Positions 30,977-61,222 of a stretch of DNA of 64,000 nucleotides are shown here, piece after piece. This stretch comes from Pseudobdellovibrionaceae bacterium (GTDB lineage Bacteria > Bdellovibrionota > Bdellovibrionia > Bdellovibrionales > Bdellovibrionaceae). The notes beneath the pieces are model-generated. The model saw only the letters and a list, made by a program, of their open reading frames with translations, did not search any database and was not told where the DNA came from. The stretch spans positions 1 to 64,000 of the forward strand of contig JAHBUS010000002.1 in the NCBI GenBank assembly GCA_019637955.1. Direction: 5' to 3'. Position 1 is the first letter of the stretch. The number at the start of each line of letters is the position of its first letter. Made by a program: the position numbers and the translations under genes.

Positions 30977-31201
30977 ATGTCCAAGTCCTATTTCACCCAA
31001 TGCCCTCGCTGCGGCACTCGCAGTTACGAACAGCTCCCCACCCACGGCCACTGCATCGAATGCCTCTACTCAAACGACCTCGCTCCACAGGGCGACAAGC
31101 GCGACTTCCTCACTCTGCGGGAAGCCGAGGCGCTGATCGAGCCGTCCGAAATTCATCAAATGCGAAGAGATCAAAAAAAGATTTCGGGAGCGGCGTCGTG
31201 A
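30977..31201 (+). CDS. Small zinc-ribbon protein heading T4SS-1 operon
   Basis: 74 residues; ATG follows GGAAAGGAAAACGAA. The N-terminal half has QCPRCGTRSYEQLPTHGHCIECLY, two CxxC pairs forming a zinc ribbon; the C-terminal half is charged (LTLREAEALIEPSEIHQMRR). The second T4SS operon also begins with a zinc-ribbon gene (60911-61222), so this position is conserved. A regulatory or nucleic-acid-binding role is plausible. Its stop overlaps the next small gene (GTGA). Confidence 0.72.
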   Translation: MSKSYFTQCPRCGTRSYEQLPTHGHCIECLYSNDLAPQGDKRDFLTLREAEALIEPSEIHQMRRDQKKISGAAS

Positions 31202-31353
31202 TCTGCCGAAGCACGAAATCCGCCATCAGAAATTCCTGGATCTGGCTCTGCCGCCAATGGGCCGAAGCCGAGGAAATTCAGCAGCGAATTGATACTGAAC
31301 GTCTCAAGGCCCAAGAGCGTTACGGCTCCGGTTTTCCGTCTCGCTGGATCTAA
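31198..31353 (+). CDS. Small protein, function unknown
   Basis: 51 residues from a GTG overlapping the preceding stop; GGGAG lies upstream. It is rich in Arg, Trp and Gln (SWIWLCRQWAEAEEIQQRID). No family recognised. It is accepted because coupling, ribosome-binding sequence and strand fit the operon; a chance frame remains possible. Confidence 0.42.
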   Translation: MICRSTKSAIRNSWIWLCRQWAEAEEIQQRIDTERLKAQERYGSGFPSRWI

Positions 31354-31387
31354 GGAGTCCAAACACAAACGAACGAATGGGGGTTCA

Positions 31388-31624
31388 ATGAGAAATTCCG
31401 AAACGACTTTGCGAAAGAACGACTGCGGGCGCTGGGAAGTCGGCATCCACGAACTGACTTCGGGAAGCGTCGTTGAAATCAAAATCGACGGTCACTGGAT
31501 CTGCGGCGTCATCGAGCACTGGCACGACAACTACTACTGGTTCAGCCGCCGCGATGGTGTTCCCGTCGTTCTTCACTCCGGCATTTATGCTCGTCTCCCA
31601 AACTCGACCGAAAGGAGGTTCTGA
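31388..31624 (+). CDS. DUF5348-like small protein
   Basis: 78 residues from ATG 31388, after a G-run. The sequence CGRWEVGIHELTSGSVVEIKIDGHWICGVIEH ... YYWFSRRDGVPVVLHSGIYARLP fits the small all-beta DUF5348 family often found in conjugative elements (W-E-V, L-x-S-G, D-G-x-W-I, G-x-x-A-R-L). Function unknown. It lies in the leader part of the T4SS-1 operon. Confidence 0.65.
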   Translation: MRNSETTLRKNDCGRWEVGIHELTSGSVVEIKIDGHWICGVIEHWHDNYYWFSRRDGVPVVLHSGIYARLPNSTERRF

Positions 31625-31686
31625 AAACTTAGTTGAGAACCAATGAGGGACCTTGAGGGTTCATTGTTTCAAATACGGAGTTCAAT

Positions 31687-32040
31687 TTGTCAGAAAATAA
31701 AATCGAACAAAAGCAAAAATCGGAAAGGCTGAATCTCTACTGGCTGTGCGGCCAGACGGGACGAAAACACCCCGCCGGGGTCGCGTTCTTCAATGAAGAA
31801 CAAGGCGACTATCGGCTGAAGATCGACGTGATGCCCGACGATAAGACGTTTTTTCTGAAAACGATCTCATCGAGCGATGACGTGACTTACTACCGCGTGG
31901 AAGCGGCCGTGAAAAAGGCCGGGCGCGTGGTTCACAGGGCGGAAGTCGGCTCCGGCTACGCCAAGAAGGAAGATCCCACCATCTACATGGACATCGGCCC
32001 GTTCTCGCGGACCCTCGTTCTTGAGCAACAACAGGCTTGA
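31687..32040 (+). CDS. Conserved T4SS-operon protein upstream of pilin
   Basis: 117 residues from a TTG preceded by CGGAG. A beta-rich protein: LYWLCGQTGRKHPAGVAFFNEEQGDYRLKIDVMPDDKTFFLK. I recognise no family. The gene at 59896-60324 occupies a comparable place upstream of virB2 in the other T4SS, but I see no clear sequence similarity. Its stop overlaps the pilin start (TTGA). Confidence 0.6.
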   Translation: MSENKIEQKQKSERLNLYWLCGQTGRKHPAGVAFFNEEQGDYRLKIDVMPDDKTFFLKTISSSDDVTYYRVEAAVKKAGRVVHRAEVGSGYAKKEDPTIYMDIGPFSRTLVLEQQQA

Positions 32041-32342
32041 AACAGGATCGTTTTCTGATGGTTCTCTTCGCGGGTTTTGCCGTTCTCATGGTGCTCTGCC
32101 CGGAACTCGCGCTTGCGCAGTTCTCGGGTGGTGCCTTGGAAAGCAAAGTCAACGGAGTGACGAGCGGACTTATCAACTTTCTCTTGCCCGCCGCGAGCGT
32201 GATCGGACTGATTTACAGTGCGATCCTCGCCGCGACCGGCGACGCCTCGGCGAAAGCCAGGATGACCACCATCGCAATCTGTAGCGTGGTTGGAATGCTG
32301 GCTCCTCTCATCATTCGCTGGCTGCAAGGGATGGTGAACTGA
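32037..32342 (+). CDS. virB2: VirB2-like pilin precursor (T4SS-1)
   Basis: 101 residues, TTG start coupled to the preceding stop. A long signal peptide ends at LALAQ, followed by two hydrophobic helices (SGLINFLLPAASVIGLIYSAILAAT and TIAICSVVGMLAPLIIRWL) separated by a short polar loop. That is the VirB2/TrbC cyclic-or-linear pilin layout: it would form the conjugative pilus. It is followed directly by virB3 (TGATG overlap). Confidence 0.87.
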   Translation: MKQDRFLMVLFAGFAVLMVLCPELALAQFSGGALESKVNGVTSGLINFLLPAASVIGLIYSAILAATGDASAKARMTTIAICSVVGMLAPLIIRWLQGMVN

Positions 32343-32626
32343 TGCTCAAGGCATCGACGGTTCATCGAAATCTGGATGCAAAGTTTAAGATCGGCGGCGT
32401 CGAAGCCGCCGATCTGTTGGCCGTTTTACTCACGGGTGCCGTGATGAATCTGATCTTTGGGCGGCTGTCCATAGGTCCCATTTTCATTTTCGGTATTCCG
32501 GGTCTTCTTTTCTGCGCTCTCTACTTCGGGAAGCGCGGAAAACCGGAGGGCTATCTCATGCACGCGCTCAAATTTTTTATTTCATCCGGCGAGCTAAGAG
32601 CCGGTGAAGTCGAGGATTCCGTCTGA
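32342..32626 (+). CDS. virB3: VirB3-like inner-membrane protein (T4SS-1)
   Basis: 94 residues. A hydrophobic hairpin (about 24-65) follows a short cytosolic N-terminus (HRNLDAKFKIGGVEAADLLAVLLTGAVMNLI), with the RGKPEGYLMH segment typical of VirB3/TraL proteins that precede VirB4. VirB3 anchors the VirB4 ATPase. The same GKP(E/D)GYL signature occurs in the second system at 58617. Confidence 0.85.
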   Translation: MLKASTVHRNLDAKFKIGGVEAADLLAVLLTGAVMNLIFGRLSIGPIFIFGIPGLLFCALYFGKRGKPEGYLMHALKFFISSGELRAGEVEDSV

Positions 32627-32649
32627 AGAAATCCCCAATTGCGGGGAAA

Positions 32650-35052
32650 GTGCCGTTCTTCCGGTTCGACGATCATCTGATGGTCTATCTGGACGGCTCG
32701 ATGGGGGTCGGTTTCAGGCTCGGCGGATTCGATAGCAGTTGCGCCTCGGTGGACTCGATCAATGCATTTTGCCAGAAGATCGAAAACTTTCTCGCAGGGC
32801 TGAATGAGGGCCTACGAATCCAGGTTTTCTACCGGCTGACGAACAACGCCTATGACGTGGTGGAACAGCATCGAGCGGTTTCGGGTGACAGCAGCCTTGC
32901 TTATCAACCGATCCGCAGCGCCCGCATCGCGTTCTTTGAAGAGAAGTTGGAATCTGGCCGGTTTTTTATGCCGGAAATTTATCTTTTCGTGCGCAGCCAG
33001 CCGCTTCAGCTCAAAAGGCGCAAGATTTTCGAGAAGAAAGAACGGTTTGAGGGATTCCCGCCTGAGCAGTTTCGTGCCCATCAGGAACGGTTCGCCATTC
33101 TCGTCTCGCAGGTGGAGGCAGCACTGCGCTCGGCGACGATTGCGCCCAGCCGTCTGCTGAAGACGGATTGGTTCAATCTCTGCTTCTCGTACTTCAACAT
33201 GGAGCGGGCCGAGATCATCGGTTGCCCCAGCTTGAGGGAGCCGACGGACGCGCTCGCCCCGAGCTTGGGCGCGCAACTGGCACTCACGGACATTTCGGTT
33301 TCCGAGAAGCACCTGAAGATCGGTGGACTGTTCTTCCGCGTCGTCACGATGGGGCTTTTGCCGGAGGGCCAGACGGTCGCCTCCATGATCGAAAGCCTGA
33401 TGACACTGCCGTTCCACTTCTGGATGTCGCAGAACATTCACACGCTGGAACAGCGCAAAGAGATCGAAAAGCTCGAACTCATGCGCCGGATCGCAAGCTC
33501 GATGGCCTCGGGAAGCAAGAATGTCTCCGACATCGAAAGCGAATCGAAGCTGTCGAACCTCGAAGACCTGCTCCGCGAGGTCATGACCGGATCGGAGCGG
33601 CTGGTGTCTTCCGATATGAACGTGATCTTCTGGGCGGAATCTCAGGAGGAACTGGAGCAGAAGACGGAAGAAATCTTGCGGGCGTTCCGTGCAACCGGCC
33701 AGGCCGAAGGTCTGGTCGAGACGTTCGGCCTGGAGGACGCCTTTTTCAAGGCCGCGCCCAGCGTGTGCGAAGGGTTCCGCCATAAGCGCATGAAGACGAG
33801 CAACTGCGCTCATCTGATGCCTTTATACGCGGCCTGGATGGGTAACAAGCGGCCGGTGGTGTTGCTCACGAACCGCGAGGGCGCACCCTTTGCCATTGAC
33901 CCGTTCGCGCCAGAATTACCCAACTGGAACGGTCTGATTTTCGGCGGTAGTGGCTCAGGGAAATCTTACTCGATTTCCCAGATGATGCTCCAGTTTTCCG
34001 GCCAGAAGTACGGCGGCAAGCCGCCGAAGATCGTGTGGATCGACAATGGAGCCTCCAGCGAGAAGCTGATCGAGGTCATGGACGGCGAGTTCATCGACCT
34101 GAACCTCAATTCGGGCATCCGCCTGAATATGTTCGATCTTGAGGCCGGAGAAGCGAAGCCCACCGCCACCAAGATCAAACTGATCCTGGGTTGTCTTGAA
34201 CTGATCCTGAAGGACGACGACAAGGTGGGACTCCCGAAGCGGGATAAGGGCCTGCTCGAAGAGGCCATTTTTTCCTGCTACCGCAAAATCGGCGAACGCA
34301 TTCCGCAGCTCTCCGATCTGCGGGAGATCCTGCGCGAGCATCCGGTGACGGATATGCGCAAATACGCCGACATCCTGTTCTCGTGGACGGGAGAAACGGC
34401 GTTCGGTCGAATGCTCGATGGTCCCAGCAACGTGAAGCTCACCAAGGACTTGGTTTCCATCGAGGTCAAGGGGCTGGAGAACTACCGGGATCTGAAGGAC
34501 ATCTTTCTGCTGCTGCTCACTTCGTACATCAAGGACGAAGCGGCTAGCGATCTGGCCCGCCCGTATCTGTTGATCGTGGATGAAGCGCAACGACTGTTCA
34601 AGTCGGGCTCTCCGATGGGAAGGGAGTTCGCTATAGATTCATTTCGCGTTTTTCGTAAGTACAACGCGGGAATCTGGTGCATCTCGCAAAACTATAAAGA
34701 TTTTTTGTCGGACCCGGACCTAGCGGACTCGCTTATGCCCAATACCACGTTCGTCTTCATCCTGCGGCAACGGAAGATCGACTGGAACGACTTCAAGGAA
34801 ACCTTCGACTTCGATGACGCTGTTGTGGAGGCGGCAAAAAGCCTGGAAATCGTCAAGCGCAAGTTTTCCGAGTTCCTACTGATCCAGGACGAAAACATTG
34901 CGGTTTTACGGCTGGAATCTGACCCGCTCAGTTACCGCATCTGCACCACCGACGGAAACGAAAAATCGGAGGAGAAGACCCTGCGGGAGAAATATCCCGA
35001 CCGCCCTCTCGTGGAAATTTTAAGTGAACTTGCTCAAGGAGATTCGCATTAA
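32650..35052 (+). CDS. virB4: VirB4-like T4SS ATPase (T4SS-1)
   Basis: 800 residues from a GTG after GGGGAAA. An N-terminal VirB4/CagE domain (about 1-410) is followed by the RecA-like motor: Walker A IFGGSGSGKSYSIS near 430, Walker B YLLIVDEAQRLFKSG near 640, and a Gln-rich WCISQNYKDFLS motif. VirB4 powers pilus biogenesis and substrate transfer at the inner membrane. Full length, no break. No VirB11 ATPase gene is present in this cluster, so VirB4 and the coupling protein would be its only motors. Confidence 0.95.
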   Translation: MPFFRFDDHLMVYLDGSMGVGFRLGGFDSSCASVDSINAFCQKIENFLAGLNEGLRIQVFYRLTNNAYDVVEQHRAVSGDSSLAYQPIRSARIAFFEEKLESGRFFMPEIYLFVRSQPLQLKRRKIFEKKERFEGFPPEQFRAHQERFAILVSQVEAALRSATIAPSRLLKTDWFNLCFSYFNMERAEIIGCPSLREPTDALAPSLGAQLALTDISVSEKHLKIGGLFFRVVTMGLLPEGQTVASMIESLMTLPFHFWMSQNIHTLEQRKEIEKLELMRRIASSMASGSKNVSDIESESKLSNLEDLLREVMTGSERLVSSDMNVIFWAESQEELEQKTEEILRAFRATGQAEGLVETFGLEDAFFKAAPSVCEGFRHKRMKTSNCAHLMPLYAAWMGNKRPVVLLTNREGAPFAIDPFAPELPNWNGLIFGGSGSGKSYSISQMMLQFSGQKYGGKPPKIVWIDNGASSEKLIEVMDGEFIDLNLNSGIRLNMFDLEAGEAKPTATKIKLILGCLELILKDDDKVGLPKRDKGLLEEAIFSCYRKIGERIPQLSDLREILREHPVTDMRKYADILFSWTGETAFGRMLDGPSNVKLTKDLVSIEVKGLENYRDLKDIFLLLLTSYIKDEAASDLARPYLLIVDEAQRLFKSGSPMGREFAIDSFRVFRKYNAGIWCISQNYKDFLSDPDLADSLMPNTTFVFILRQRKIDWNDFKETFDFDDAVVEAAKSLEIVKRKFSEFLLIQDENIAVLRLESDPLSYRICTTDGNEKSEEKTLREKYPDRPLVEILSELAQGDSH

Positions 35053-35056
35053 ACGA

Positions 35057-35749
35057 ATGAAGACTTGTCTGGTGGCGGCCCTCATCATGGCCTGCGCGTT
35101 GCGCCCAGCACCCGCGCTGGCGTTCACCGATGGTTCAGGATGGGCGGCGGTTGGATACCTCATCAAAATTCTGGAGGAAAACTATCGGCGGTATGTGCAG
35201 CTCAAAGCCATGATCGACACGGCGAACGGTCACTACGACTACATTCGGGCGCTCAATCGCGGCCTGGACAACTCCATCGGTCTTTTGGAGGCGCTGCCCA
35301 TTAAGGACGAGAAGGTTTTGGCGGAACTGAAGAACTTCAAGGAAGCGGTCGCCCGCGTGGAACTGCTCTACGGAAAAATCCCGCAGAGCCCGGATGAAGC
35401 CCTGCACCTCCTGCACGATCAATCCGTGGCGGAAAGCCTGCGCATGGCGAACTCCTTCAAGGATTTCTCCGACACGCAGGAGAAAAATTCGTTGTTGATC
35501 GCCGCCCAAGCGCGGGAGGCATCGCCCAAGGGCGCGGCCCGGATGCAGGCCGAGACGAGCGCGGAGATCCTGCGCACGCTCTCGCAGTTGATTCGCCTCA
35601 ACACGCAGATGCTCAAGCTCCAAAGCGAACAGATTGCGATGGCGAACAAGTCCGCGAAAGATGAGGTAGCGGGATTCCAGAAGATCAACCAAGACCTTGG
35701 AAGCGGATTTTCCAAGTTCAAGCCGGACATGAAATTCATCGCTTTCTAA
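35057..35749 (+). CDS. virB5: VirB5/TrbJ-like secreted protein (T4SS-1)
   Basis: 230 residues from ATG 35057, 4 bp after virB4. Signal peptide MKTCLVAALIMACALRPAPALA. The mature part is helical and coiled-coil-prone (LIKILEENYRRYVQLKAMIDTA; SAEILRTLSQLIRLNTQMLKLQSEQIAMANK), matching the VirB5/TrbJ pilus-tip family by size, position and the conserved Q-x3-L-x3-Q-x-A tail shared with the gene at 55359. The AAGGAG is rather far (15 bp) from this ATG. Confidence 0.83.
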   Translation: MKTCLVAALIMACALRPAPALAFTDGSGWAAVGYLIKILEENYRRYVQLKAMIDTANGHYDYIRALNRGLDNSIGLLEALPIKDEKVLAELKNFKEAVARVELLYGKIPQSPDEALHLLHDQSVAESLRMANSFKDFSDTQEKNSLLIAAQAREASPKGAARMQAETSAEILRTLSQLIRLNTQMLKLQSEQIAMANKSAKDEVAGFQKINQDLGSGFSKFKPDMKFIAF

Positions 35750-36697
35750 ATGTTTGAATATCTAGGAAGCGTTGGCGCGGAACTCCACGCGCAGATGGTT
35801 CAAATGTACTGGATTCTCTTGGTTCCGTTTGTCGTGTTCCTGTTCGTGTTGGAGGTCATCAAGGACGACAATCCGAATCTACGCGATTTATTTCGCCGGA
35901 TCGTGTTTTCGGTGCTGCTACTGCTGACCTTTGATTGGACCCTTCAGACGATTGCCGTGGTTGGCGACGCCGTGACGGAGAAAATCAACGGGTTGCAACG
36001 GCTCTCCGAGGTTCTTCAGAATCTCGGGCCGAACTACTCCGGCAAGGATAGCTGGTTCAACGTGCGGGAAACGATTCTCTATGTGTTCAGCATCGCGGCC
36101 TACCTGATCGCCTACCTGGGGTTTTTCGTGGCAATGGCGCTGACCCACTTCGTCTGGACGATCCTGTATGTGGCCGCGCCCTTGATGATTCTCATGTACG
36201 TCAGTCGCCATACGGAGCGCGTGACCATGAGTCTCTACAAGGGATTAGTGCAGGTCGTGATCTGGAAGATTTTGTGGTCGATCCTTGGCGTCTTGCTGCT
36301 GAAGCTCGCCATGCAGCCGGAGGTTACGGGGCTTGAGGATTATATCATGTCCATCGTGGTGAATCTCTGCATCGGATTCTCAATGCTGTTCATCCCGATT
36401 GCCACAAGATCCTTGGTTTCGGATGGGATGTCCTCGGTTGCAAGCTCGCTTGCGGCGGTTCCGGCGATTGCCGCCGGGGGTGCCGTCAAGATGGCGGCGG
36501 CCAAGTACGGAGGAAAAATCGCGGGTGCCGCCGCGTTCGCGGCCAAGCCCGCCACGAACCCCATTGCGGGGCGCGTGGAAATGATGAAGGACCGATTGCA
36601 GCCGCGATTCGAGCAGGCAAAGAAGGCTTACGGAGCCATCGGGCTCCCGCAGGAAATTCTCAAAAAAAGAGCCAGAAAAGAAAAGAGGAATAAGTGA
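35750..36697 (+). CDS. virB6: VirB6/TrbL-like polytopic membrane protein (T4SS-1)
   Basis: 315 residues, starting directly after the virB5 stop. At least five hydrophobic segments (about 20-40, 50-75, 110-135, 145-165, 180-230) and a conserved Trp-rich central helix (VQVVIWKILWSILGVLLLK) match VirB6. The Ala/Gly-rich C-terminus ends in a basic tail. VirB6 forms part of the inner-membrane channel. Its last bases overlap the virB8 start (GTGA). Confidence 0.85.
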   Translation: MFEYLGSVGAELHAQMVQMYWILLVPFVVFLFVLEVIKDDNPNLRDLFRRIVFSVLLLLTFDWTLQTIAVVGDAVTEKINGLQRLSEVLQNLGPNYSGKDSWFNVRETILYVFSIAAYLIAYLGFFVAMALTHFVWTILYVAAPLMILMYVSRHTERVTMSLYKGLVQVVIWKILWSILGVLLLKLAMQPEVTGLEDYIMSIVVNLCIGFSMLFIPIATRSLVSDGMSSVASSLAAVPAIAAGGAVKMAAAKYGGKIAGAAAFAAKPATNPIAGRVEMMKDRLQPRFEQAKKAYGAIGLPQEILKKRARKEKRNK

Positions 36698-37287
36698 ACG
36701 AAAAATCTAAGAACACGATCCCGAATATCTGGACGGCACAAGAGAACCTGATCCATTTTTATCGGCTTCTCTCTGCGGGCCTGGGTGGGCTCGCTGTCAT
36801 TTTGCTGGTGGTGGCCGTCGCGTTCGGTTTTCGAGATCCGATTGTCGTCGTGAAGTCGGATGATGCGCAGGAGTTTTTTGTGAGCCGCCGAGCGCCGGTT
36901 TCCATTGAAAAGAAGGATGTCGAAAATATCACGCGGCGTTTTCTCGATGCGCTGTATGTCTGGCCGGAGTTTAATGGCCAGGCGCTCGCCAAAGAGATCG
37001 CGCCCTACGCGGAAGAAGCATTGGTGGGAAAAATTGTCGAAACGCAGGCGCTCAAATACGGCAAGGACTTCAAGGGTAAGAAGCTGGCGCAGGAGCTGTC
37101 CTTCGTAAAGGTGGACGTGCTGGAGGATCGCGTGATCTGCACATTCGACCGCATCCTGAAGATCGAAGGGATACCGCTGGTCATTCCAACCGAAGTCACG
37201 CTGTCGATGCTGCGCGGGAGTAGCACACGGGAAAATCCAATGGGCGTCTTCGTCTCTGGTATTTTAGAAAATGAAGGCGCGAAGTAA
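36694..37287 (+). CDS. virB8: VirB8-like assembly factor (T4SS-1)
   Basis: 197 residues. A short cytosolic N-terminus, one transmembrane helix (about 27-47) and a periplasmic NTF2-like domain (FLDALYVWPEFNGQALAKEIAPYAEEALVGK ...), the bitopic layout of VirB8/TraE proteins that nucleate the T4SS. Assignment rests on topology and operon position more than on motifs. GTG start coupled to virB6; overlaps virB9 by 17 bp. Confidence 0.77.
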   Translation: MNEKSKNTIPNIWTAQENLIHFYRLLSAGLGGLAVILLVVAVAFGFRDPIVVVKSDDAQEFFVSRRAPVSIEKKDVENITRRFLDALYVWPEFNGQALAKEIAPYAEEALVGKIVETQALKYGKDFKGKKLAQELSFVKVDVLEDRVICTFDRILKIEGIPLVIPTEVTLSMLRGSSTRENPMGVFVSGILENEGAK

Positions 37288-38023
37288 GTTGTGGGGTTTT
37301 GTCGGACTGTTGATGCTGATTTCGATTGAAGTCGGAGCAATGGTCCCGCCGGGTGACAAACGAACGATCCTCACCTCCGGGGAAAAAGTTTACCCGATTC
37401 AATATCGGCTCGGCACGAGCACGATTTTGTATTTCGGTCTGCGCCCCGAGACGGTGATCTGCGGGAACAAAAACTATTTCAACATCGAGAAGATCAAAGA
37501 GGGAATCACGATTCAGCCTCTGTCGAATTTCTCCACCAACCTGACGGTTCTCGCTCAAGGCCGGCGCTATCTGTTTTTCCTGACTCCCGCCATCGGTCGC
37601 CCCGATGGATTCGTGGAAGTGAAATGGATTCCGCCCGGCCAGGCACGATCCGTCAAGGCGCTGGCGAAACATGACGGCGAAGTGACCCGAGAGCTCGGAC
37701 AGAAGACCAAGATCGGCACCGCCGTTGAGTTTTCCATTTTGCGCGAGAAGGCTTTGGACAAAGGGAAACGCCGGATCTTCGAGATCGAGATGAAAAACCT
37801 CGGTGGGAAAGCCATTCCCGCGAATCAGTTTGAGGTGGTGGCCTCTATCGCGGGCGTCCCTCTCGCCCGCCAGGTTGTCGTCTGGGAAGGCGATGACCTG
37901 AAGGAGAAAGGCAAGCTCCGGGGCCGCGTGATCGTCTCGGGCCATGATGGAAGGCCTCTGAGCCTCGTTGTCGGCTATCTGGGCAAGAGCACCAAGCTCG
38001 TCATCAAGGGGGGCCGCAATTAG
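37271..38023 (+). CDS. virB9: VirB9/TrbG-like outer-membrane complex protein (T4SS-1)
   Basis: 250 residues with a signal peptide (KLWGFVGLLMLISIEVGAM). The beta-rich body (EKVYPIQYRLGTSTILYFGLRPETVICGNKNYF ... TNLTVLAQGRRYLFFLTP) has the VirB9/TraK-like N-domain pattern of alternating strands. It should form the periplasmic/outer-membrane core with VirB10. No VirB7 lipoprotein gene is next to it; the glycine-zipper lipoprotein at 41470 is a distant candidate. Confidence 0.8.
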   Translation: MKARSKLWGFVGLLMLISIEVGAMVPPGDKRTILTSGEKVYPIQYRLGTSTILYFGLRPETVICGNKNYFNIEKIKEGITIQPLSNFSTNLTVLAQGRRYLFFLTPAIGRPDGFVEVKWIPPGQARSVKALAKHDGEVTRELGQKTKIGTAVEFSILREKALDKGKRRIFEIEMKNLGGKAIPANQFEVVASIAGVPLARQVVVWEGDDLKEKGKLRGRVIVSGHDGRPLSLVVGYLGKSTKLVIKGGRN

Positions 38024-38048
38024 GTGGTGGGAGACGTGTCAGGAGCGG

Positions 38049-38948
38049 TTGAAGCGGACTTTTCTCCAAGCCAGCGGTGGAAAAACCATTGTTGCCCTTC
38101 AGCGCGTGGGTGTCGTGGCTGGCGGCGGGCTTTTACTTCTCGCCGCTGGCATGGCGTGGTTCGGCCCCGCAGAAGATCGGACGTTCTACTTGCAAACGAC
38201 GCAGACGCAGAATCGCGGCGAGGAAAATCCCGCAAGCGGCGGAACGGCGGTCAGTGGCCCTGTAGCGGCACTTTTTGGCAATAGCGAGAGGAAAAAGGAA
38301 TCAGAGGCGCGGGCCGCGATAGAGCAAAAACGAAAGCGCGTCGTCATCAAGTATTACGCGCCTCAACTCGTGGGCCAATCGAACAAGGTGCCGAAGGCCA
38401 TTCGCTCAGGTGCCAAGCTGGTTGGCTTTCTTCTGAAAGCCATCGACACCCGTGCGCCTTCGCCGGTTCATGTACGCATCGCCCAGGGCGGCGAAGTGAA
38501 CGGCGTCGAGATCGAGAAGGGTTCGGTTTTGACCGGCCAGTATTCCTACGCCGGTTCCGGTGAGCTGGTTTTCGTGTCGTTCTCGCGGCTGGATACGCCC
38601 GAGGGCGAGCCCAAGAAAATCCAGGCGCAGGCCCTTGATAGCGGCACCTACACCGCCGGGATTTCCGGCGAGGTGTATTCCGACGCCGGGCTCAAGACGG
38701 CCGCGAGCCTCGGGCTGACCATGTTCGGCGGTATGGCCGATGTCCTGACGGAGAAGGAATCGCTCGGATTCTCGCAAAACGGTGTGCAGGCCAAATCCAC
38801 CATGCGGAATGCGCTCTTGCAGGGGCTTTCCCGTTCGGCGCAGGAGCAGACAGGCCGGATGCAGAACGAGATCAACTCGGCGAAGGACTATGTGCTCATT
38901 CCCGAGGGCAAGGAAATGATTATCGAACTGACTGAGGATTTCAAATAG
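38049..38948 (+). CDS. virB10: VirB10/TrbI-like core protein (T4SS-1)
   Basis: About 299 residues from a TTG at 38049; the AGGAG at 38041-38045 is only 3 bp away, so this start is provisional (TTG 37968 is the longest reading). One transmembrane helix near residues 20-36 (VVAGGGLLLLAAGMAWF), a charged linker, then the beta-barrel domain (IRSGAKLVGFLLKAIDTRAPSPVHVRIAQGG ... EIEKGSVLTGQYSY) and ending in YVLIPEGKEMIIELTEDF, the usual VirB10 close. It bridges inner and outer membranes. Confidence 0.86.
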   Translation: MKRTFLQASGGKTIVALQRVGVVAGGGLLLLAAGMAWFGPAEDRTFYLQTTQTQNRGEENPASGGTAVSGPVAALFGNSERKKESEARAAIEQKRKRVVIKYYAPQLVGQSNKVPKAIRSGAKLVGFLLKAIDTRAPSPVHVRIAQGGEVNGVEIEKGSVLTGQYSYAGSGELVFVSFSRLDTPEGEPKKIQAQALDSGTYTAGISGEVYSDAGLKTAASLGLTMFGGMADVLTEKESLGFSQNGVQAKSTMRNALLQGLSRSAQEQTGRMQNEINSAKDYVLIPEGKEMIIELTEDFK

Positions 38949-43993: not shown

Positions 43994-44016
43994 TGGCTAC
44001 ACTCTGGCTACAAATT
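43994..44016 (+). repeat. Candidate right attachment site of ICE-1
   Basis: Two TGGCTACA words at 43994 and 44005, 11 bp apart, followed by AATT. It equals 125-147 at 22 of 23 positions. It overlaps the final codons and stop of the minus-strand serine recombinase gene (EFVARV-stop), so ICE-1 appears to have inserted at the 3' end of a gene belonging to the neighbouring element. Confidence 0.72.
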
Positions 44017-52913: not shown

Positions 52914-52932
52914 TAGGAGTCCTCCTTTCGGC

Positions 52933-53679: not shown

Positions 53680-53701
53680 AGGGGGCCTCCTTTTCTGGTT
53701 T

Positions 53702-54292
53702 TTAGGGCGACATGAGTTTTTCACTCGTGATGTAGATGCCTTCAGGGTTGTTGGCGGTGCGGTCGCCTAGGGTGAATCCAATCTCAAGATCGAGTCCTTG
53801 CGCCGCCCGCACCCCACTGACGATGAGGATACGGTCGGCTCGGACCTGGGCCGTTTTTGCCTTCATGTTGAGCTTTGGCTCATCGGGAAAGAACTTCTGT
53901 GCGATTTGCTTTTCCTTGGAAATGCGAATCTGCTCGGCGGTCGCCACGAGGTACTTTTCCCGGTAGTCGCTTGCGACGTAAAAGCTCGCGGCTTTGGTTT
54001 TCGCTTCAACCGTGTTCCAGTCCCAATTGTGCCGGGTCTTCAAGTAATTGATGATCGCCCGAATGATCTCTCGCGTGAGTTGTTCGGCGTCAGGTTCCCC
54101 GACATCGAGCTTCTGCGTGACCTCTTTGGAAATTGCGATAAGAACGGGGCCGCGCAAAGCGAGGACCGAAATCACCACGAGTTGAACGGAGAGAACGGCG
54201 GCGAGGACGAGAACCATGTATTTCAGGATGCGGTTTTGCGCTTCTTCGTCGGCCCACACCTCGAACCAACGGCGCTGAATCTTGCGAATCAT
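53702..54292 (-). CDS. virB8: VirB8-like protein (T4SS-2)
   Basis: 196 residues from ATG 54292 (AAAGGC upstream). One transmembrane helix near 25-48 (YMVLVLAAVLSVQLVVISVLAL), then a periplasmic domain (EQLTREIIRAIINYLKTRHNWDWNTVEAKTKAASFYVASDYREKYLVATAEQ). The layout is that of VirB8/TraE. Position between virB6 and virB9 supports the call. Confidence 0.8.
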   Translation of the reverse strand: MIRKIQRRWFEVWADEEAQNRILKYMVLVLAAVLSVQLVVISVLALRGPVLIAISKEVTQKLDVGEPDAEQLTREIIRAIINYLKTRHNWDWNTVEAKTKAASFYVASDYREKYLVATAEQIRISKEKQIAQKFFPDEPKLNMKAKTAQVRADRILIVSGVRAAQGLDLEIGFTLGDRTANNPEGIYITSEKLMSP

Positions 54293-54311
54293 ATTTTGCC
54301 TTTCGTTTTTT

Positions 54312-55304
54312 TTACGCCCTAGGAGGCGGTAATTGCGGAGGCGGCGGAGGAAGGTAGATCGTAGAGGCTTGGATTTGCCGAGGCCCGACATCTCTCATTG
54401 GTGGCGGAGGCGGTGGATTTCCACCCATCGAAAATCCTCCACCATGAGCGCCCATCTTGTTGTTCATCATCTTGCCGAAGTTCATGAGGTTCCCCATCTC
54501 GCCGCCGAGTAATTTCTTTGCCGCTAAGACTTTTGCGGGAGCCGCGACCATCAAAGCCGCTGTTGCACCGGAAAGACCGCCTGCCATCGACGTGAAACTG
54601 CCGCTAAAGAGCGAGTGAACAACAAGCGGAGTGCCGACCATGCAGATCGCGATGACGAAATTCATCACCGTTATGGTGAGGTAATTTCCGTCCATCGCGT
54701 ACCACGTCCCGAACGGCAGAGCCTTTATCATGACCGACAAAACGCTCCAGACCACTTTCCACGAAGCAATCTCGAACATCGAACGAAAGAGGTTCACGGT
54801 GACTTGCGACGAGAACAGATGAAACAAGAGCAGAATCGGAGCCATGATAGACAAAAAGATCCAAGAGAAATGATAAACGGCGACCATGATATATCTGGCG
54901 CAATAGAGGATCGCAAAAGAGCAGTAGGACAAAACCGCCATCATCAAGTCGTCAAAGGCCAACACCAAAGACATCGAACTGCGTGGATAACTTTGGGCTT
55001 TCTCTCCTGCCATTTGCAGGAAAGAATCAAGCCCGCTCATGTTGTCGATCCTCTCGGCAATCCCGCTCGTGATGAACAGCATGGCGTCCGTGATCTCGGC
55101 GAATCCCGCGAGAAGCAGGGTCGCTACGAATGCCCTTTTCACCTTGTCGATAAACTCAGGACTCCCTGCCGGATTCTGAAGCCAAACAATCACCACCGAC
55201 GCCATGAAGAAGACCGGAAGCAGCATGTAGTAGATGTCTCGCATCTCGTTGTGGACCTTGAAGGCCACCGAGCCGAGCGCCGCGAACTGATTTAACTGAT
55301 CCAC
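54312..55304 (-). CDS. virB6: VirB6-like polytopic protein with proline-rich tail (T4SS-2)
   Basis: 330 residues; GTG start 9 bp after GGAGG. Five or six hydrophobic segments (about 25-45, 58-78, 115-140, 148-170, 195-240), with the Trp-centred FEIASWKVVWSVLSVMIKALPF helix matching VQVVIWKILWSILGV of the ICE-1 VirB6. The C-terminus is strikingly proline-rich (NPPPPPPMRDVG; YLPPPPPQLPPPRA), absent from the ICE-1 homologue, and may bind a partner. Confidence 0.85.
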   Translation of the reverse strand: MDQLNQFAALGSVAFKVHNEMRDIYYMLLPVFFMASVVIVWLQNPAGSPEFIDKVKRAFVATLLLAGFAEITDAMLFITSGIAERIDNMSGLDSFLQMAGEKAQSYPRSSMSLVLAFDDLMMAVLSYCSFAILYCARYIMVAVYHFSWIFLSIMAPILLLFHLFSSQVTVNLFRSMFEIASWKVVWSVLSVMIKALPFGTWYAMDGNYLTITVMNFVIAICMVGTPLVVHSLFSGSFTSMAGGLSGATAALMVAAPAKVLAAKKLLGGEMGNLMNFGKMMNNKMGAHGGGFSMGGNPPPPPPMRDVGPRQIQASTIYLPPPPPQLPPPRA

Positions 55305-55358: not shown

Positions 55359-56060
55359 CTAGTGGGAACCGGAGAGCGACGGCAGATCAAAGCCGCCCTT
55401 GGCGGCTTGAAGGACCTGGCCCAGCTCGTTGTACTGATCGCGGAACTGCTCGGATTGGAGTTTGGACTTTCGGTTTTGCATGGCGAGCTGTTCGCTCTGT
55501 ACTTTGAGGAGGGCCGCGTTTGTGCGAAGAATCTGATTCAAGACGTGAATCGTGACCCCTTGCGCTTGCAGGCTTGCTTTCGCGGCCCCTTGCGGGCTCG
55601 CCACGTTCGCATATTGCTTCATGCGCTCGGCCTCGGGATCAACACCGTCGGCGTACCGGAAGGCGTCGTTGTGAAGCTGGATGCTCTCGGCCACCGTCAT
55701 ATCGTGCGTGCTCTGCGTTTGCGCTTCGGCTGTCATGGGGATTCTCCCATAGAGCCGTTCCATCTGGCGTAGGATGTCGTTCACGTCGTTCAAGTTCCAA
55801 TTTCCGCTTTTCATGGTGCGGTTCAGGGTTTCTTGCAACCGCATGGCATCCCGCAAGCCGTTGTTGATGTCCCTCATAAAGTTCAGCGAGTCGCGGCCAT
55901 TGCCAAGAATCGACTGAAGCTGCGTTACTTGTTGGATGGCCTGCGCGAGAATCTGCATAAGGATGGGAATATCGGCCCCCCAGAAATCCGCCTTGGCCGA
56001 AGGCGAAATCGTGAGGGCCAAGGCCGTCACTAAGGACAAGAATCCCTTTCTGATCTTCAC
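55359..56060 (-). CDS. virB5: VirB5/TrbJ-like protein (T4SS-2)
   Basis: 233 residues. Signal peptide MKIRKGFLSLVTALALTISPSAKA; then a helical secreted protein (PILMQILAQAIQQVTQLQSILGNG ... TIHVLNQILRTNAALLKVQSEQLAMQNRK). The last segment corresponds to LQSEQIAMANK in the ICE-1 homologue. ATG overlaps the virB4 stop (ATGA). Confidence 0.85.
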   Translation of the reverse strand: MKIRKGFLSLVTALALTISPSAKADFWGADIPILMQILAQAIQQVTQLQSILGNGRDSLNFMRDINNGLRDAMRLQETLNRTMKSGNWNLNDVNDILRQMERLYGRIPMTAEAQTQSTHDMTVAESIQLHNDAFRYADGVDPEAERMKQYANVASPQGAAKASLQAQGVTIHVLNQILRTNAALLKVQSEQLAMQNRKSKLQSEQFRDQYNELGQVLQAAKGGFDLPSLSGSH

Positions 56061-58630
56061 GCGCTCTCCTTCGTTTGAAGGTTGCTCATGGCGACGCCTC
56101 GCGGGTACTTCGTGGCGAGATCGAATATCACTTCCGAAATGCTCTTTGACGGGTTCTCCTCTCTGTACTTTTCGTAAACGCTGTTATCATCCCGGTCACT
56201 CGTCGCCAGCCAATACTCAAGCGGAGTCGGAAAAGCGCGGATTACAGCGCGGTCTTCATTGGCGATCATGTAGGCTTCCGAGAAAACGCCCTTTTGCTGG
56301 CGAAGAGTCGAAATGAGCGCCATTTCCTGATCGTTGAGTTTCAGGACCCGGCGCACGGGTTCAAGATCGCCTCGTTGAAGCAGAATGACCTTGGTGGGCG
56401 TGTTGCCTAAGATCGCGGGACCAATCGGATGCGCGACAATCTCGTCCAGCCCTTGGGTGACGAAAGTGATGCCCCCGAGTGCTTTTCGCAGGGTTCGCAC
56501 CCAGTACTCCATCGCGTGCGAGGCAGGTCCTTTCAACAGCTCCCAGCATTCGTCCATGTAAATGCGCTTCTTACGCCCGAAGTATTGCGGAAGCCGCGAT
56601 TCCACCTTACCCACGATAAAATCCGTGATGATGAGGGTCATCACAGCCTGAAGATCGGGGTAAGAGGAAAGGCCCTTCAAGTCGAAGACGACGAAGTCCG
56701 AGCTCAGATCCAGTTCGTTCGGGCGATCCAAGAGTCGCCCGTAAGAACGCTCGCCCGTCCACGGATAGAGCATCTTGGCGAAGTCTTGCAGTTCCTTCTC
56801 TTTCGATTTTTCCAGCGTTTTGCGAAGGTCGGAGAGAACGGGCACTCGCGCATCTATTGCCCGCACCGCCTTGTAGGTCTCGATAACCGCTTCTTCGAGG
56901 AGGCTGCGCGAGAGTTTTGGGAGCTTGTCACCTTCCTCGTCCGTGAACATACATTCGAGAAGCGAGACGAGAAATTTCACCTTCTGCGAAGAAGGCTCGA
57001 CCTCATCACTAGGAAGCTCGAACGGATTGATGACCTTCCGGGTTTCTCCTTCGGTGGCGGGGCCGATCTCGATGTACTGGCCGGACATGAACTCGCAAAT
57101 TTTCTTGTACGATCCACCGATGTCGATAACGAAGACGATGGGCTTTTGGGTCATCGCCTGAGTCATAATGATGTTGTTCAAGAAACTTTTTCCGGCTCCC
57201 GAAGAACCCGTGAAAAGCGCATTGAACGATGGCAGTCGGGCCGTATCGAAAGGGTCATAGGCCACAAGGCCCGCCGTGCGGTTGTGAAACAAACAAACGG
57301 GGCTGACACCTTGACCGGAGTAGGGCTCAAAGATCGGTAAGAAATCGGCGAGGTTGTCGGTCTTAACCCGCTTCGCCCGAACGCTCGCCACGTTCCCGAG
57401 TGGCAGCATGGTCTTGAACACCTTGAATCCTGCGACTGTCTCGGCCAGTCCTTCCGCGCCCGATAGCTCGCGGAATTTCTGCAAAGCCGTTTTCGTCATT
57501 GTGGTCAGTTCGTCTTCGGTCTTGGCTCGAAGAAGGAGTGACGTCTGGAAGTAAAAAATCTTTTGCCCCGTGTTGATGAGCTCGCGTAAAAGTTCTTCCG
57601 TGGAATTGAGCTGCGCTTCGGATTCGAGATCAGTCGCACGGCCTCCGTGGGACGCTGACATGGAGTGCGCCATGCGCCGCTTTTGCTGAAGGCTCGAAAG
57701 CTCCTTCGATTGCTCTGGCACCTTCACATGGACATCGAGCCAGTAGTGAAACGGAAGCTGCGTGAAAACGGCCATCATCGCCGCGTGGGTTTCTTCAGGC
57801 AGCGTTTTCAGGGTCAAAATCCGGTGGTAGTAGCCGTCGAAGAAGAAACTCTCTGCGCCCTGAATCAGATCCGAGAAAACGAGCTGTTCTCTCGGGCTTT
57901 GCAACGCAAGCTCGGGGACGATCTTCAACTCCTCGCCTTGAAATTCCTGATCGCGGTGCGCGGTCTGGAATTTCGGCGCGGAAACGTCTTTCGAGCGGGA
58001 GGGATTCAGGAACTTGTAGATCAGCTCCCAGGTTTCACTCTCTGAAAGAGGTTCGGCACCGATCCCCATACTCGTAAGCACTGCTTGGCAGCTATCAGCA
58101 CTTTGCCGGAGCTCCCGTTCGGCCTTTTCATGCTCTTCCTGACGCACGGCCTGGAATTTCTTAGGCGAGCTAAAAAACGACGAGAAGATTGAGGCGTTTT
58201 TCTTCCCCTCAAAGCGTTGGCAAAGGAAGAGATACAGCGAGGAACGCGAGAGTGCCCCGCTTTCCATCTGGGCCTTCAGAGCGTCGGCGCGGGCCTCGGC
58301 AATCCATCGGATGCCGGGGATGTCGCCGGAAAGAGCCTTGTGTTTCTCGATGATCTCCGAAAAATCGGAGTTCACCTGAGTCACGAAACTCAGCTCCAGG
58401 CCGTCCGGCAGACCGTTCAGGAAAGAGCGGAGGTCTTGGGCGAGACGGTTGATGCGGTTTGCATCCCACGTTTCTACCGAAGCACCTTTCAGGCGAAAGC
58501 CAAGGCCCAGGCTTCCGTCGCTGAGGGCGACTATGCCGTTTAAGAAGTCCCAATACGGAAGTTCTTTTGCGAGAGAGTGTTCAGCCTGAAATTCGTTGAA
58601 GTCGGAAAATAGCCGATTACGTTTCGTCAT
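56057..58630 (-). CDS. virB4: VirB4-like T4SS ATPase (T4SS-2)
   Basis: 857 residues from ATG 58630 after GAGGAGG. N-terminal domain (YWDFLNGIVALSDGSLGLGFRLKG), then the motor: Walker A LFTGSSGAGKSFLNNIIM near 475, Walker B RIYMDECWELLKG near 685, and GGITFVTQGLDEIVAHPIGPAILGN. Intact and full length. It overlaps virB3 by 14 bp and virB5 by 4 bp. Confidence 0.95.
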   Translation of the reverse strand: MTKRNRLFSDFNEFQAEHSLAKELPYWDFLNGIVALSDGSLGLGFRLKGASVETWDANRINRLAQDLRSFLNGLPDGLELSFVTQVNSDFSEIIEKHKALSGDIPGIRWIAEARADALKAQMESGALSRSSLYLFLCQRFEGKKNASIFSSFFSSPKKFQAVRQEEHEKAERELRQSADSCQAVLTSMGIGAEPLSESETWELIYKFLNPSRSKDVSAPKFQTAHRDQEFQGEELKIVPELALQSPREQLVFSDLIQGAESFFFDGYYHRILTLKTLPEETHAAMMAVFTQLPFHYWLDVHVKVPEQSKELSSLQQKRRMAHSMSASHGGRATDLESEAQLNSTEELLRELINTGQKIFYFQTSLLLRAKTEDELTTMTKTALQKFRELSGAEGLAETVAGFKVFKTMLPLGNVASVRAKRVKTDNLADFLPIFEPYSGQGVSPVCLFHNRTAGLVAYDPFDTARLPSFNALFTGSSGAGKSFLNNIIMTQAMTQKPIVFVIDIGGSYKKICEFMSGQYIEIGPATEGETRKVINPFELPSDEVEPSSQKVKFLVSLLECMFTDEEGDKLPKLSRSLLEEAVIETYKAVRAIDARVPVLSDLRKTLEKSKEKELQDFAKMLYPWTGERSYGRLLDRPNELDLSSDFVVFDLKGLSSYPDLQAVMTLIITDFIVGKVESRLPQYFGRKKRIYMDECWELLKGPASHAMEYWVRTLRKALGGITFVTQGLDEIVAHPIGPAILGNTPTKVILLQRGDLEPVRRVLKLNDQEMALISTLRQQKGVFSEAYMIANEDRAVIRAFPTPLEYWLATSDRDDNSVYEKYREENPSKSISEVIFDLATKYPRGVAMSNLQTKESA

Positions 58631-58940
58631 CGGGTGCCTCCTCTTGGAAGTAAGACCGGTAATCAAGGTCAGGCATCGAAGGAGAGAGGACGCTTGGGCT
58701 CACCATGTACTCGCCATAGTGCTGAAGGTAGCCATCGGGCTTTCCGCGCTTGACGAAGTAGAGAACGCCCGCGAGCGCGGTTGTTCCTCCCCATACGAGC
58801 AGGAATTTCAGCCGGGTGTGCCCGAAGACGAGGTTCGAGACAGCGAGATACAAAAAGACGAGCAGCAAGTCCGCGAGTTCAAAGCCAAAGAGCCGCGCCT
58901 TCTTTTCAAGAGCACGCGGTACCTTCGAGTGAAAGAGCAT
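58617..58940 (-). CDS. virB3: VirB3-like protein (T4SS-2)
   Basis: 107 residues from ATG 58940 (AAAGGAG upstream). Cytosolic start HSKVPRALEKKARLFGFELADLL, a hydrophobic hairpin (LLLVFLYLAVSNLVFG ... FLLVWGGTTALAGVLYF) and VKRGKPDGYLQHYGEYM, the same GKPxGYL motif as the ICE-1 VirB3. Placed between virB2 and virB4. Confidence 0.87.
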   Translation of the reverse strand: MLFHSKVPRALEKKARLFGFELADLLLVFLYLAVSNLVFGHTRLKFLLVWGGTTALAGVLYFVKRGKPDGYLQHYGEYMVSPSVLSPSMPDLDYRSYFQEEAPDDET

Positions 58941-58996
58941 GAGGACTCCTTTCTTCAAGAAACGAAGGCCGGAAAATGCTCCGGCCTCGTTGGTCG

Positions 58997-59299
58997 TTAG
59001 CGGACGGCATCAGAAATGAAGTCGATAATTGCTTGGCTTCCGAACCCGAGTGCTGCGCCTATCAAGGCGTAGGTGACGTGCCTCTTCGAGTCAGGGTGGC
59101 CCGTCATGTAGCTGAACGATGCGACGAGCAATCCGATCACGGAAAGTAATGGGAGTACGACATTGGAGAGCTGCGAACGGATATTTTCGAGAGAGCCACG
59201 AAAATCGGCGAAGGCGAGATCAGGGAATAGAGCGATGACCAGCGTGGGAAGGAAAACGGACAGGAGTGCGACGGCATCCTGTTTGGAAATGGAACGCAT
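58997..59299 (-). CDS. virB2: VirB2-like pilin precursor (T4SS-2)
   Basis: 100 residues from ATG 59299 after GGGAGGAAAG. Long signal peptide ending near LAFA, then two hydrophobic helices (NVVLPLLSVIGLLVASFSYMTG and VTYALIGAALGFGSQAIIDFI) split by a short charged loop HPDSKRH, like GDASAKAR in the ICE-1 pilin. This is the expected pilin architecture. Confidence 0.88.
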   Translation of the reverse strand: MRSISKQDAVALLSVFLPTLVIALFPDLAFADFRGSLENIRSQLSNVVLPLLSVIGLLVASFSYMTGHPDSKRHVTYALIGAALGFGSQAIIDFISDAVR

Positions 59300-59360
59300 A
59301 CTTTCCTCCCGAGAAAGCAATGATTGGGAGTGGTATGCGTGGAGGGGCCTTGTAAGGGAC

Positions 59361-59846: not shown

Positions 59847-59895
59847 ATTTCCTCTTTTCTCGCCCTTTCTTTGGGCGTGGTTTGGTTGTTCAAAT

Positions 59896-60324
59896 TTAAG
59901 CCGCGGGGTTCGACTGCGTTTCGAGTTCCTTGGTCGTGGCCCCGTGAAAATTCAGGTACAAATCCACGCACGCCAGAAGGTCGAAATCGAGCTTCATGAT
60001 GCCGGAGTTTTGATCCCCGAGGAGCTTCGCCGTGCCGACGCGGTTCCAGAAATACTTTTTCCCCGGAAGGCTAGACGGTTCACGAGTCAGGATCACGAAA
60101 TCAAACGGACGACCCGCCTCTTGTTCAGGCAAGAGATAGAACTGATCCTTCAGAAACATTCGGAGATACAGCGTGTAGGTTGTCGATCCCTCGTAGAGCG
60201 TCGAATGCCCCACGGAATTGATCTTTTCGATCTTGCCGCTATCGTCGATGCGGCCTTTGAAAACGTCGAAACGATAGACTTTGACTTTGTTCCCCTGCAT
60301 TTGGTTTTGGCTTGCGATATTCAT
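59896..60324 (-). CDS. Conserved-position protein of T4SS-2 operon, function unknown
   Basis: 142 residues; ATG follows GAGGGGAAAAT. Beta-rich (VKVYRFDVFKGRIDDSGKIEKINSVGHSTLYEGSTTYTLYLRMFLKDQFYLLP ... FDFVILTREPSSLPGKKYFWNRVG). No signal peptide, so cytosolic. Family not recognised. It sits two genes upstream of virB2 in the same operon. Confidence 0.7.
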   Translation of the reverse strand: MNIASQNQMQGNKVKVYRFDVFKGRIDDSGKIEKINSVGHSTLYEGSTTYTLYLRMFLKDQFYLLPEQEAGRPFDFVILTREPSSLPGKKYFWNRVGTAKLLGDQNSGIMKLDFDLLACVDLYLNFHGATTKELETQSNPAA

Positions 60325-60361
60325 ATTTTCCCCTCTTCTTGCATGGCGCTTAGGCCACGCT

Positions 60362-60628
60362 TTACGATTCCATGATTTTGAGCATCGAATGTTTCGACCT
60401 TGAAAATGCAGGGTGTTTCAAACAAAACTCGCGGAGCATCCGAAGTGCTCGCGTGAGCAGAGCTTCCGTGGAGCGAAGGCTTAGGCCGAGCGTTTCCGCG
60501 ATCTCGACCGTTTCCATGTTCTGCCAGAAGCGGAGGTCCACAACAGCCGCGTGAAGGCCCGGAAGCCTCTCCATAGCCGCCCGAATGATGGCGTAGTCCG
60601 TCGGTGTAAATAAGTTCGCGCATCTCAT
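60362..60628 (-). CDS. Stand-alone sigma70 region 4-like protein
   Basis: 88 residues; ATG after GGGGGAG. The sequence ERLPGLHAAVVDLRFWQNMETVEIAETLGLSLRSTEALLTRALRMLREF is region 4 of a sigma70/ECF factor (the HTH that reads the -35 box). Region 2 is absent, so it cannot act as a full sigma factor; it may be an anti-/co-sigma or activator-like DNA-binding protein. Located in the leader of the T4SS-2 operon. Confidence 0.8.
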   Translation of the reverse strand: MRCANLFTPTDYAIIRAAMERLPGLHAAVVDLRFWQNMETVEIAETLGLSLRSTEALLTRALRMLREFCLKHPAFSRSKHSMLKIMES

Positions 60629-60649
60629 TGGCTCCCCCTCTTGATGCGG

Positions 60650-60883
60650 TTATAGCCAACGGTTCAAATGAACCGGAGGGCGTCTTTCAGGCTCGCGCTC
60701 GTTGCGAAACTCCAGATCACGCCAAGTCTCGTAGTCGAGGCTCTGGCCCACGGATGGACTGAAGAGTTTCCCGAGTGTGCGCCGGATTTTCTTAAAAACG
60801 CTTTTCTTACCTGCCTCATTCGTGACGAGGCGTGGACGATTTTGGATTCCTGTTTTACTGATCGTTTGCGTGGCGGCGTTCAT
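60650..60883 (-). CDS. Small basic protein, function unknown
   Basis: 77 residues from ATG 60883, 8 bp after AGAAAGG; GTG 60892 is an alternative. A Lys/Arg-rich middle (KKSVFKKIRRTLGKLFSP) and a charged end (DYETWRDLEFRNEREPERRPP). No domain recognised. It lies between the zinc-ribbon and sigma-region-4 genes. Confidence 0.5.
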   Translation of the reverse strand: MNAATQTISKTGIQNRPRLVTNEAGKKSVFKKIRRTLGKLFSPSVGQSLDYETWRDLEFRNEREPERRPPVHLNRWL

Positions 60884-60910
60884 GTCTTTCACCTTTCTTT
60901 CCCCTTTGTC

Positions 60911-61222
60911 TTACGCGCTGACTTCGACCGGGCGGGGTTCTGCCTGGTAGTCATCGGTTTTGGCCGCAGGATTCATTGGCGTGACGGGAGTCAGTTCCGG
61001 CTTCGTCAGAAAATGCTCCTTGAAGGCTACTTCGAGATTGTTCATCAGACCCCGCTCGACGTACTCGATGCAGGTGTCCCAATCGCAGGAGCAGCAAAAC
61101 TGATCCGGCCCTTCGCTCAAAAGATCCTTCGAGCCGCAGACAGGGCACCGCTCACGGCGGGCCAGCGATTTGCGTCGGGTTCGTTCTTTGATCTGTCTCT
61201 GCTGGAGTTGTAGGCTCATCAT
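60911..61222 (-). CDS. Zinc-ribbon protein heading T4SS-2 operon
   Basis: 103 residues; ATG preceded by AGGAGCGAAAAA. Zinc ribbon CPVCGSKDLLSEGPDQFCCSCDWDTC between basic N-terminal (QIKERTRRKSLARRER) and acidic/Pro C-terminal parts. As in ICE-1, a zinc-ribbon gene opens the T4SS operon. Its start is about 17 bp after the inferred sigma54 transcription start. Confidence 0.75.
   Translation of the reverse strand: MMSLQLQQRQIKERTRRKSLARRERCPVCGSKDLLSEGPDQFCCSCDWDTCIEYVERGLMNNLEVAFKEHFLTKPELTPVTPMNPAAKTDDYQAEPRPVEVSA

Follow-up and report, generated by a model that had tools for sequence, protein, structure and literature searches.

The stretch of DNA considered here (the window) comprises the opening 64 kb of contig C7 (JAHBUS010000002.1) in the 3.77 Mb genome of a Pseudobdellovibrionaceae bacterium. 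It carries two type IV secretion system (T4SS) gene clusters, and with a probability of roughly 0.86 these are the transfer (tra) regions of two integrative and conjugative elements (ICEs) that lie side by side, belong to one widespread Bdellovibrionota family, encode their own relaxase of the MOBC type and have no VirB11. This reading is built on gene content, an invariant gene order, flanking repeats, membership of a relaxase family and the spread of a sister element, each of which was observed directly.

A preliminary description, made without database searches, had recognized two T4SSs of one plan in opposite orientation, each with VirB2-3-4-5-6-8-9-10, and Pfam together with family profiles bears this out. 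Cluster 1, on the forward strand, begins with a zinc-ribbon gene (30977-31201, family profile), correctly placed by that description at the head of both clusters although its coordinates in cluster 1 are corrected here, followed by the gene for a DUF5348 protein (31289-31624, Pfam) and a conserved lead gene (31687-32040) whose family is present in 71 of 85 loci. The channel genes then run in order: the VirB2 pilin (32037-32342), a VirB3/TraL-like gene (32342-32626), the VirB4/TraC ATPase (32650-35052), a VirB5-like gene (35024-35749), VirB6 (35750-36697), a VirB8/TraE-like gene (36694-37287), VirB9 (37271-38023) and VirB10 (37968-38948). Behind them lie the genes for a coupling protein of the TcpA/FtsK type (38999-40483), the predicted MOBC relaxase (40443-41213), a glycine-zipper protein (41512-41880) and a conserved small accessory protein (41877-42269, present in 63 loci) that may be a ribbon-helix-helix-like relaxosome factor. 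Cluster 2, on the reverse strand, consists of a zinc-ribbon lead gene (60911-61222) and a conserved lead gene (59896-60324), both found by family profile, VirB2 (58997-59320), VirB3/TraL-like (58617-58958), VirB4/TraC (56057-58666), VirB5-like (55359-56060), VirB6-like (54312-55304), VirB8/TraE-like (53702-54391), VirB9 (52933-53724) and VirB10 (51987-52949) genes, a coupling protein gene of the TraD/VirD4 type (50388-51990), a glycine-zipper lipoprotein gene (49867-50313), the predicted MOBC relaxase gene (49025-49885) and a homolog of the small accessory gene (46429-46785). In both clusters Pfam identifies TrbC/VirB2, VirB4 (TraC_F_IV and P-loop_TraG), VirB9 (CagX), VirB10 (TrbI) and Replic_Relax, and curated VirB4/TraC models also score the ATPases, though below their cut-offs. 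The Pfam matches of the VirB3/TraL-like proteins are all weak (DUF3487, with TraL in cluster 2 only), VirB6 (TrbL) is matched in cluster 1 only, and VirB8/TraE is matched weakly and in cluster 2 only. VirB5 has no Pfam match and is conserved in position and sequence across about 80 loci; both VirB5 genes, VirB6 of cluster 2 and VirB8 of cluster 1 were placed by position and by family profiles built in this analysis. The glycine-zipper gene reported earlier for both clusters is recovered by Pfam in cluster 1 and by family profile in cluster 2.

The two coupling proteins do differ in family, as first described, that of cluster 1 matching FtsK_SpoIIIE (4e-24) and the Tn916-type Orf21 (3.7e-23) and that of cluster 2 matching TraG-D_C (4e-9), but the cluster 2 gene is not intact. 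A frameshift at about 50.93-51.02 kb divides it into two overlapping open reading frames (ORFs) in different frames that match the single protein of one relative, and about 34 Bdellovibrionota relatives carry the gene as an uninterrupted ORF of 539-623 aa. The frameshift is either an assembly error or decay, and because of it element 2 is probably impaired as assembled.

Central to the argument is the relaxase. The statement that the clusters have no classical relaxase holds in so far as no HUH relaxase is present, the genome's two PF03432 relaxases being on other contigs and none lying in or near the clusters; it does not hold as a gap, since a MOBC gene lies beside the coupling protein gene or one gene away in both clusters. 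The Replic_Relax-like proteins had been seen, and what changes is their role. Replic_Relax (PF13814, Rel_PF13814) is MobC in CONJscan (PMC5357655), and MOBC is a non-HUH but recognized relaxase family (PMC5357655; PMC12857230) for whose enzymes no covalent DNA intermediate has been found (PMC12857230). The Pfam E-values are 2.1e-4 for cluster 1 and 4.7e-4 for cluster 2, and the NCBIfam MobC model NF041423 matches cluster 2 at 1.4e-10. When a profile built from about 75 Bdellovibrionota homologs was run against 1820 reference ORFs, its best match was TraX of the pAD1-type plasmid pTEF1 (1e-12), the similarity spanning both the winged helix and the nuclease region; next came two fragments of the CloDF13 MobC relaxase, which the record used splits into separate ORFs. 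In pTEF1, which is typed MOBC, the 'replication-relaxation' protein is encoded next but one to the coupling protein. Across an alignment of 22 sequences H121, D122, D169, E186 and K192 (cluster 2 numbering) are invariant, and E144, E188, R196 and Y197 are present in at least 90%; these are the residues of a PD-(D/E)XK-type active site. An HUH relaxase overlooked in the first reading was sought by genome search and was not found in the clusters, and 24 of the 30 genomes carrying this tra family have no PF03432 relaxase, the remainder having it away from tra. From the profile match, the conserved residues and these 24 genomes it is concluded that the Replic_Relax genes most probably encode the MOBC relaxases of both clusters.

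The limits of the elements are given by a 19-bp core, TGGCTACAYTCTGGCTACA, which occurs three times in the genome, every copy being on contig C7 and in the same orientation, with the form TGGCTACA[T/C]TCTGGCTACA at contig positions 125, 43994 and 78981. The first copy (125-143, forward strand) marks the left end of element 1, the middle copy (43994-44012, forward strand, from the repeat search) the boundary between the elements, and the third (78981-78999) lies beyond the window. The cores thus bracket 125-44012 (element 1, 43.9 kb) and 43994-78999 (element 2, 35.0 kb), whose tra regions lie tail to tail. Flanking attachment repeats of the kind that define an ICE are therefore present, and an integrase, a relaxase candidate, a coupling protein and VirB4 occur within one element. 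The gene for a tyrosine integrase (42862-43983, forward strand; Phage_integrase 6e-21) ends 10 bases short of the middle core and that for a large serine recombinase (43997-45661, reverse strand; Resolvase 5e-9) ends inside it; the assignment of either integrase to a particular core site is presumptive. The ends were taken from the repeats because a search for close DNA relatives of either window element, by which the ends could have been mapped by alignment, returned none, and an empty attachment site was sought and not found. Window positions 1869-5223 hold a second large serine recombinase, related to that of element 2, beside a ParB/RepB-like protein and a paralog of it.

Relatives of these elements are common in the phylum. 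Of 290 Bdellovibrionota genomes sampled, 81 have a match to the VirB4 profile, and about 80 Bdellovibrionota loci were compared (the fetched set also holds three comparator plasmids and one duplicate locus). Gene order in the fetched loci runs from the lead genes through B2, B3, B4, B5, B6, B8, B9 and B10 to a block of coupling protein, MOBC and lipoprotein, and then to the small accessory protein, also conserved, and an integrase of either the serine or the tyrosine type. The full set of eight VirB genes plus a coupling protein is present in 72 loci; MOBC accompanies it in 71 of them and an integrase in 65. With the window left out, the block reads coupling protein-MOBC-lipoprotein in 34 of 34 FtsK-type loci and coupling protein-lipoprotein-MOBC in 26 of 27 TraD-type loci. 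The same genome has a third member of the family (C9:324838-344160), which runs into a contig end and is 92.8% identical over 19.3 kb to an element in another bacterial family, whereas recA is 73.4% identical; the shared block begins 9.9 kb before VirB4 and takes in the kinase, peptide-binding protein and regulator. The ICE family therefore moves, and for this sister element horizontal movement is a matter of observation: it has spread recently between families.

Several points weigh against the reading of two adjacent ICEs with their own relaxases. A tyrosine integrase is present in one element and a serine integrase in the other, although both are bracketed by the same core. The Replic_Relax Pfam scores of both clusters fall slightly below the gathering score, the cluster 1 protein matches the curated NCBIfam model weakly (0.0067), the structure model of MOBC (pLDDT, the predicted confidence score, of 52 from a 3-sequence alignment) leaves the nuclease fold unconfirmed, a search for solved relatives gave winged-helix matches only, and the MOBC alignment proved too weakly conserved to serve as a query against the sequence collection. 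Nicking, transfer and the origin of transfer (oriT) are all predictions from sequence. Alternatively, 125-78999 may be one composite element, 78.9 kb long and equipped with two T4SSs, and not a tandem pair; the outer two repeats have 32 identical bases in common, where the middle copy shares about 20. In most relatives, however, a single tra region is found with a single integrase at its end, and several other genomes have tandem or neighbouring copies, which makes a composite unlikely, though worth keeping in view.

The absence of VirB11 and VirB1, noted at the outset, withstood closer search: T2SSE has 10 matches genome-wide and none within the window, a T2SSE/VirB11 profile that finds Thermus VirB11 at 1.5e-66 has none in about 80 related loci, and no SLT/VirB1 gene lies near the clusters. 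A VirB11 missed in the first reading was thus sought in the genome and in related loci, and was not found. By itself this absence is not new, as the F plasmid tra region lists no VirB11 and Gram-positive systems also lack it (PMC12857230). The two window VirB4 proteins are 31% identical to each other. In a VirB4 tree that covers mating-pair-formation (MPF) types other than C and G, with the VirB4 proteins of R64 (type I) and Tn925 (type FA) as tree references only, the Bdellovibrionota VirB4s form a single clade with support 1.0; coupling-protein type tracks the VirB4 clades, with one long-branch exception (L103), and integrase types alternate. That the clusters are an F-type (MPF_F) system after mere gene loss would agree with the curated model that scores highest, TraC-F-type (248 and 274 bits), but its cut-off is 567 bits, the VirB4 clade stands apart from F-type TraC in the tree, and the operon of about 80 relatives leaves no room for TraF, TraH, TraN, TraU, TraW and TrbC, no unassigned genes of this sort being seen in it (no profile search was made for them); such an origin is quite improbable. 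The other curated cut-offs were likewise not reached (MPF_G 55-72 of 521 bits, MPF_B 21-80 of 262, FATA 146-187 of 325). Because one fully supported VirB4 clade falls below all curated cut-offs, a distinct mating-pair-formation lineage, as had been suggested, appears reasonable, and both the missing VirB11 and the exchangeability of the coupling protein are genuine marks of it. The lineage is apparently undescribed, no description of the ICE family having been found in the open-access literature, and a VirB4 search of viral contigs gave one remote locus.

The remaining alternatives carry little weight. An HUH relaxase acting in trans, with Replic_Relax merely a replication or regulatory protein, could draw on the two PF03432 relaxases elsewhere in this genome, but such relaxases are missing from most genomes with this tra family, and MOBC, its active-site residues conserved, lies by the coupling protein in 71 of the 72 complete loci; this arrangement is very unlikely. 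Just as improbable are non-conjugative T4SSs for contact-dependent protein delivery or DNA release fixed in predatory bacteria: predators could employ delivery machines and conjugation here is predicted from genes, but relaxase, coupling protein and integrase occur together, a near-identical copy is found in another family, and direct repeats lie at the flanks.

If the clusters are transfer regions of ICEs, a working scheme can be proposed in which the integrase would excise the element at the short direct-repeat cores and MOBC, a presumed winged-helix protein with a restriction-endonuclease-type active site, would nick the origin of transfer. A coupling protein, TcpA/FtsK-like in element 1 and TraD/VirD4-like in element 2, would pass the strand to a minimal channel of VirB2-3-4-5-6-8-9-10, powered by a TraC-like VirB4 without VirB11, and the element would be transferred. 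By a further step of inference, the upstream kinase and sigma-54 activator, in many elements together with a YcaO/peptide-binding cassette, may regulate these events. Inverted repeats below the element 2 MOBC gene were considered as an oriT; they exist, and nothing links them to transfer.

Parallels with known systems are instructive. The MOBC relaxases TraX of pAD1 and MobC of CloDF13 (PF13814) share the N-terminal winged helix followed by HD/HH...E...D...ExE...K..RY, and pTEF1 likewise encodes its MOBC near a VirD4-type coupling protein, but TraX and MobC are only about 20% identical to the window proteins, and here MOBC is also paired with a TcpA/FtsK-type coupling protein, a type not found with canonical relaxases in streptococcal integrative and mobilizable elements (PMC5357655). 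MPF_F, as in the plasmid F tra region, has a TraC-like VirB4, TraL/TraE-like small proteins and no VirB11, but differs from the window clusters in its TraF, H, N, U, W and TrbC, in gene order (B2-B3-B4-B5-B6-B8-B9-B10 here) and in its MOBF relaxase. MPF_T (R388, VirB/Trw) has a very similar VirB2-10 order, but the window clusters lack VirB11 and VirB1 and their relaxase is non-HUH. The Myxococcus plasmids pYRE and MxC21-1 have VirB4 proteins 25-28% identical and related VirB6/VirB10, and pYRE a related TraD-type coupling protein; unlike the window systems they are plasmid-borne with Par proteins, the gene that contains the VirB10-like match is annotated as a protein kinase, and the MOBC match in pYRE is marginal only. 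Tn916-type TcpA/Orf21 belongs to the coupling-protein family matched by element 1, but the known TcpA proteins have been reported in MPF_FA systems of Gram-positive bacteria (PMC12857230), and here the type occurs in a diderm with VirB9 and VirB10.

Upstream of both tra operons lies the candidate regulatory cassette (window 24773-30424; contig C7 61469-67160). In element 1 it has a divergent YcaO-small ORF-SBP-kinase-regulator layout, SBP being the SBP_bac_5 peptide-binding protein, and annotation of the cassette places on the reverse strand a sigma-54 response regulator with a GSFTGA motif (24773-26461), a histidine kinase (26151-27545) and the SBP (27542-29032), followed on the same strand by a small exported protein of 101 aa ending in SEPSCWTAPY (29034-29339), a candidate signal precursor with a homologous ORF in the same place in 5 relatives, and a YcaO-family enzyme (29351-30424; PF02624 5e-17). 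Between YcaO and tra are five palindromes, TTCAGRNWTYCTGAA (30538-30825), unique in the 64 kb and recovered in 0 of 100 shuffles, which are candidate operators. The element 2 layout is codirectional regulator-small ORF-SBP-YcaO-kinase, with the annotated kinase (61469-63013) and YcaO enzyme (63010-63930) on the reverse strand and the SBP, small exported protein and sigma-54 regulator continuing beyond the window to contig 67160. Ahead of tra, most ICEs of the family have a kinase together with a sigma-54 activator, often accompanied by a peptide-binding protein, YcaO and the small exported protein. A sigma-54 response regulator of this family lies within 15 kb upstream of VirB4 in 39 of 49 extended loci, with GAFTGA in 37 of 40 such regulators; SBP_bac_5 is found in 32 loci and YcaO in 19 of the 49. 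The small exported-looking proteins are about 90-107 aa long (one 136) and carry a P(S/T)C or (I/V)C motif at the C-terminus, six of them belonging to the divergent layout and eight to the codirectional one; among 16564 small ORFs such proteins are found at cassette positions only, a result that shows cassette restriction and not independent detection, the profiles having been built from those proteins. In 24 carrier genomes there are 28 YcaO matches, about half of which, counted from coordinates, are no more than 15 kb from a tra cluster; some YcaO genes stand alone, and the cassette is therefore not exclusive to ICEs. Sigma-54 promoters upstream of tra show no excess over shuffles, so that direct sigma-54 control of tra is not shown and a peptide signal is a hypothesis, one given odds somewhat short of even: the element-encoded signal, a small protein exported by Sec and bearing a conserved C-terminal Ser/Thr/Ile-Cys motif, would be modified by the adjacent YcaO enzyme, bound by SBP_bac_5 and read by the kinase and sigma-54 activator, which would switch on tra. 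In the open-access literature no paper was found that connects YcaO with conjugative elements and pheromones.

Cargo also sits inside the bracketing repeats, with defence genes (Mza, AbiE) in one element and potassium transport (Kdp) in the other. Element 1 carries AbiEii, an MzaC/Z1 protein, a type II restriction enzyme-like protein and an Eco57I/DrmMI-like methyltransferase (window 5756-23334), and element 2 a BBP2 porin, a KdpA and KdpB-type potassium pump and a KdpD/KdpE-type sensor-regulator pair (contig C7 68325-77556).

If the cassette controls transfer, it would be a new mode of conjugation regulation, and the peptide proposal, if true, would mean that a post-translationally modified pheromone governs conjugation in a Gram-negative predator lineage. 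With matching VirB4 in 81 of the 290 genomes sampled, the family is apparently the standard conjugative element of the whole phylum. A non-HUH relaxase is combined in it with a VirB11-free diderm channel, and coupling protein and integrase are swapped as modules, so that it lends itself naturally to testing which components of a T4SS can be exchanged and in what way MOBC enzymes deliver DNA.

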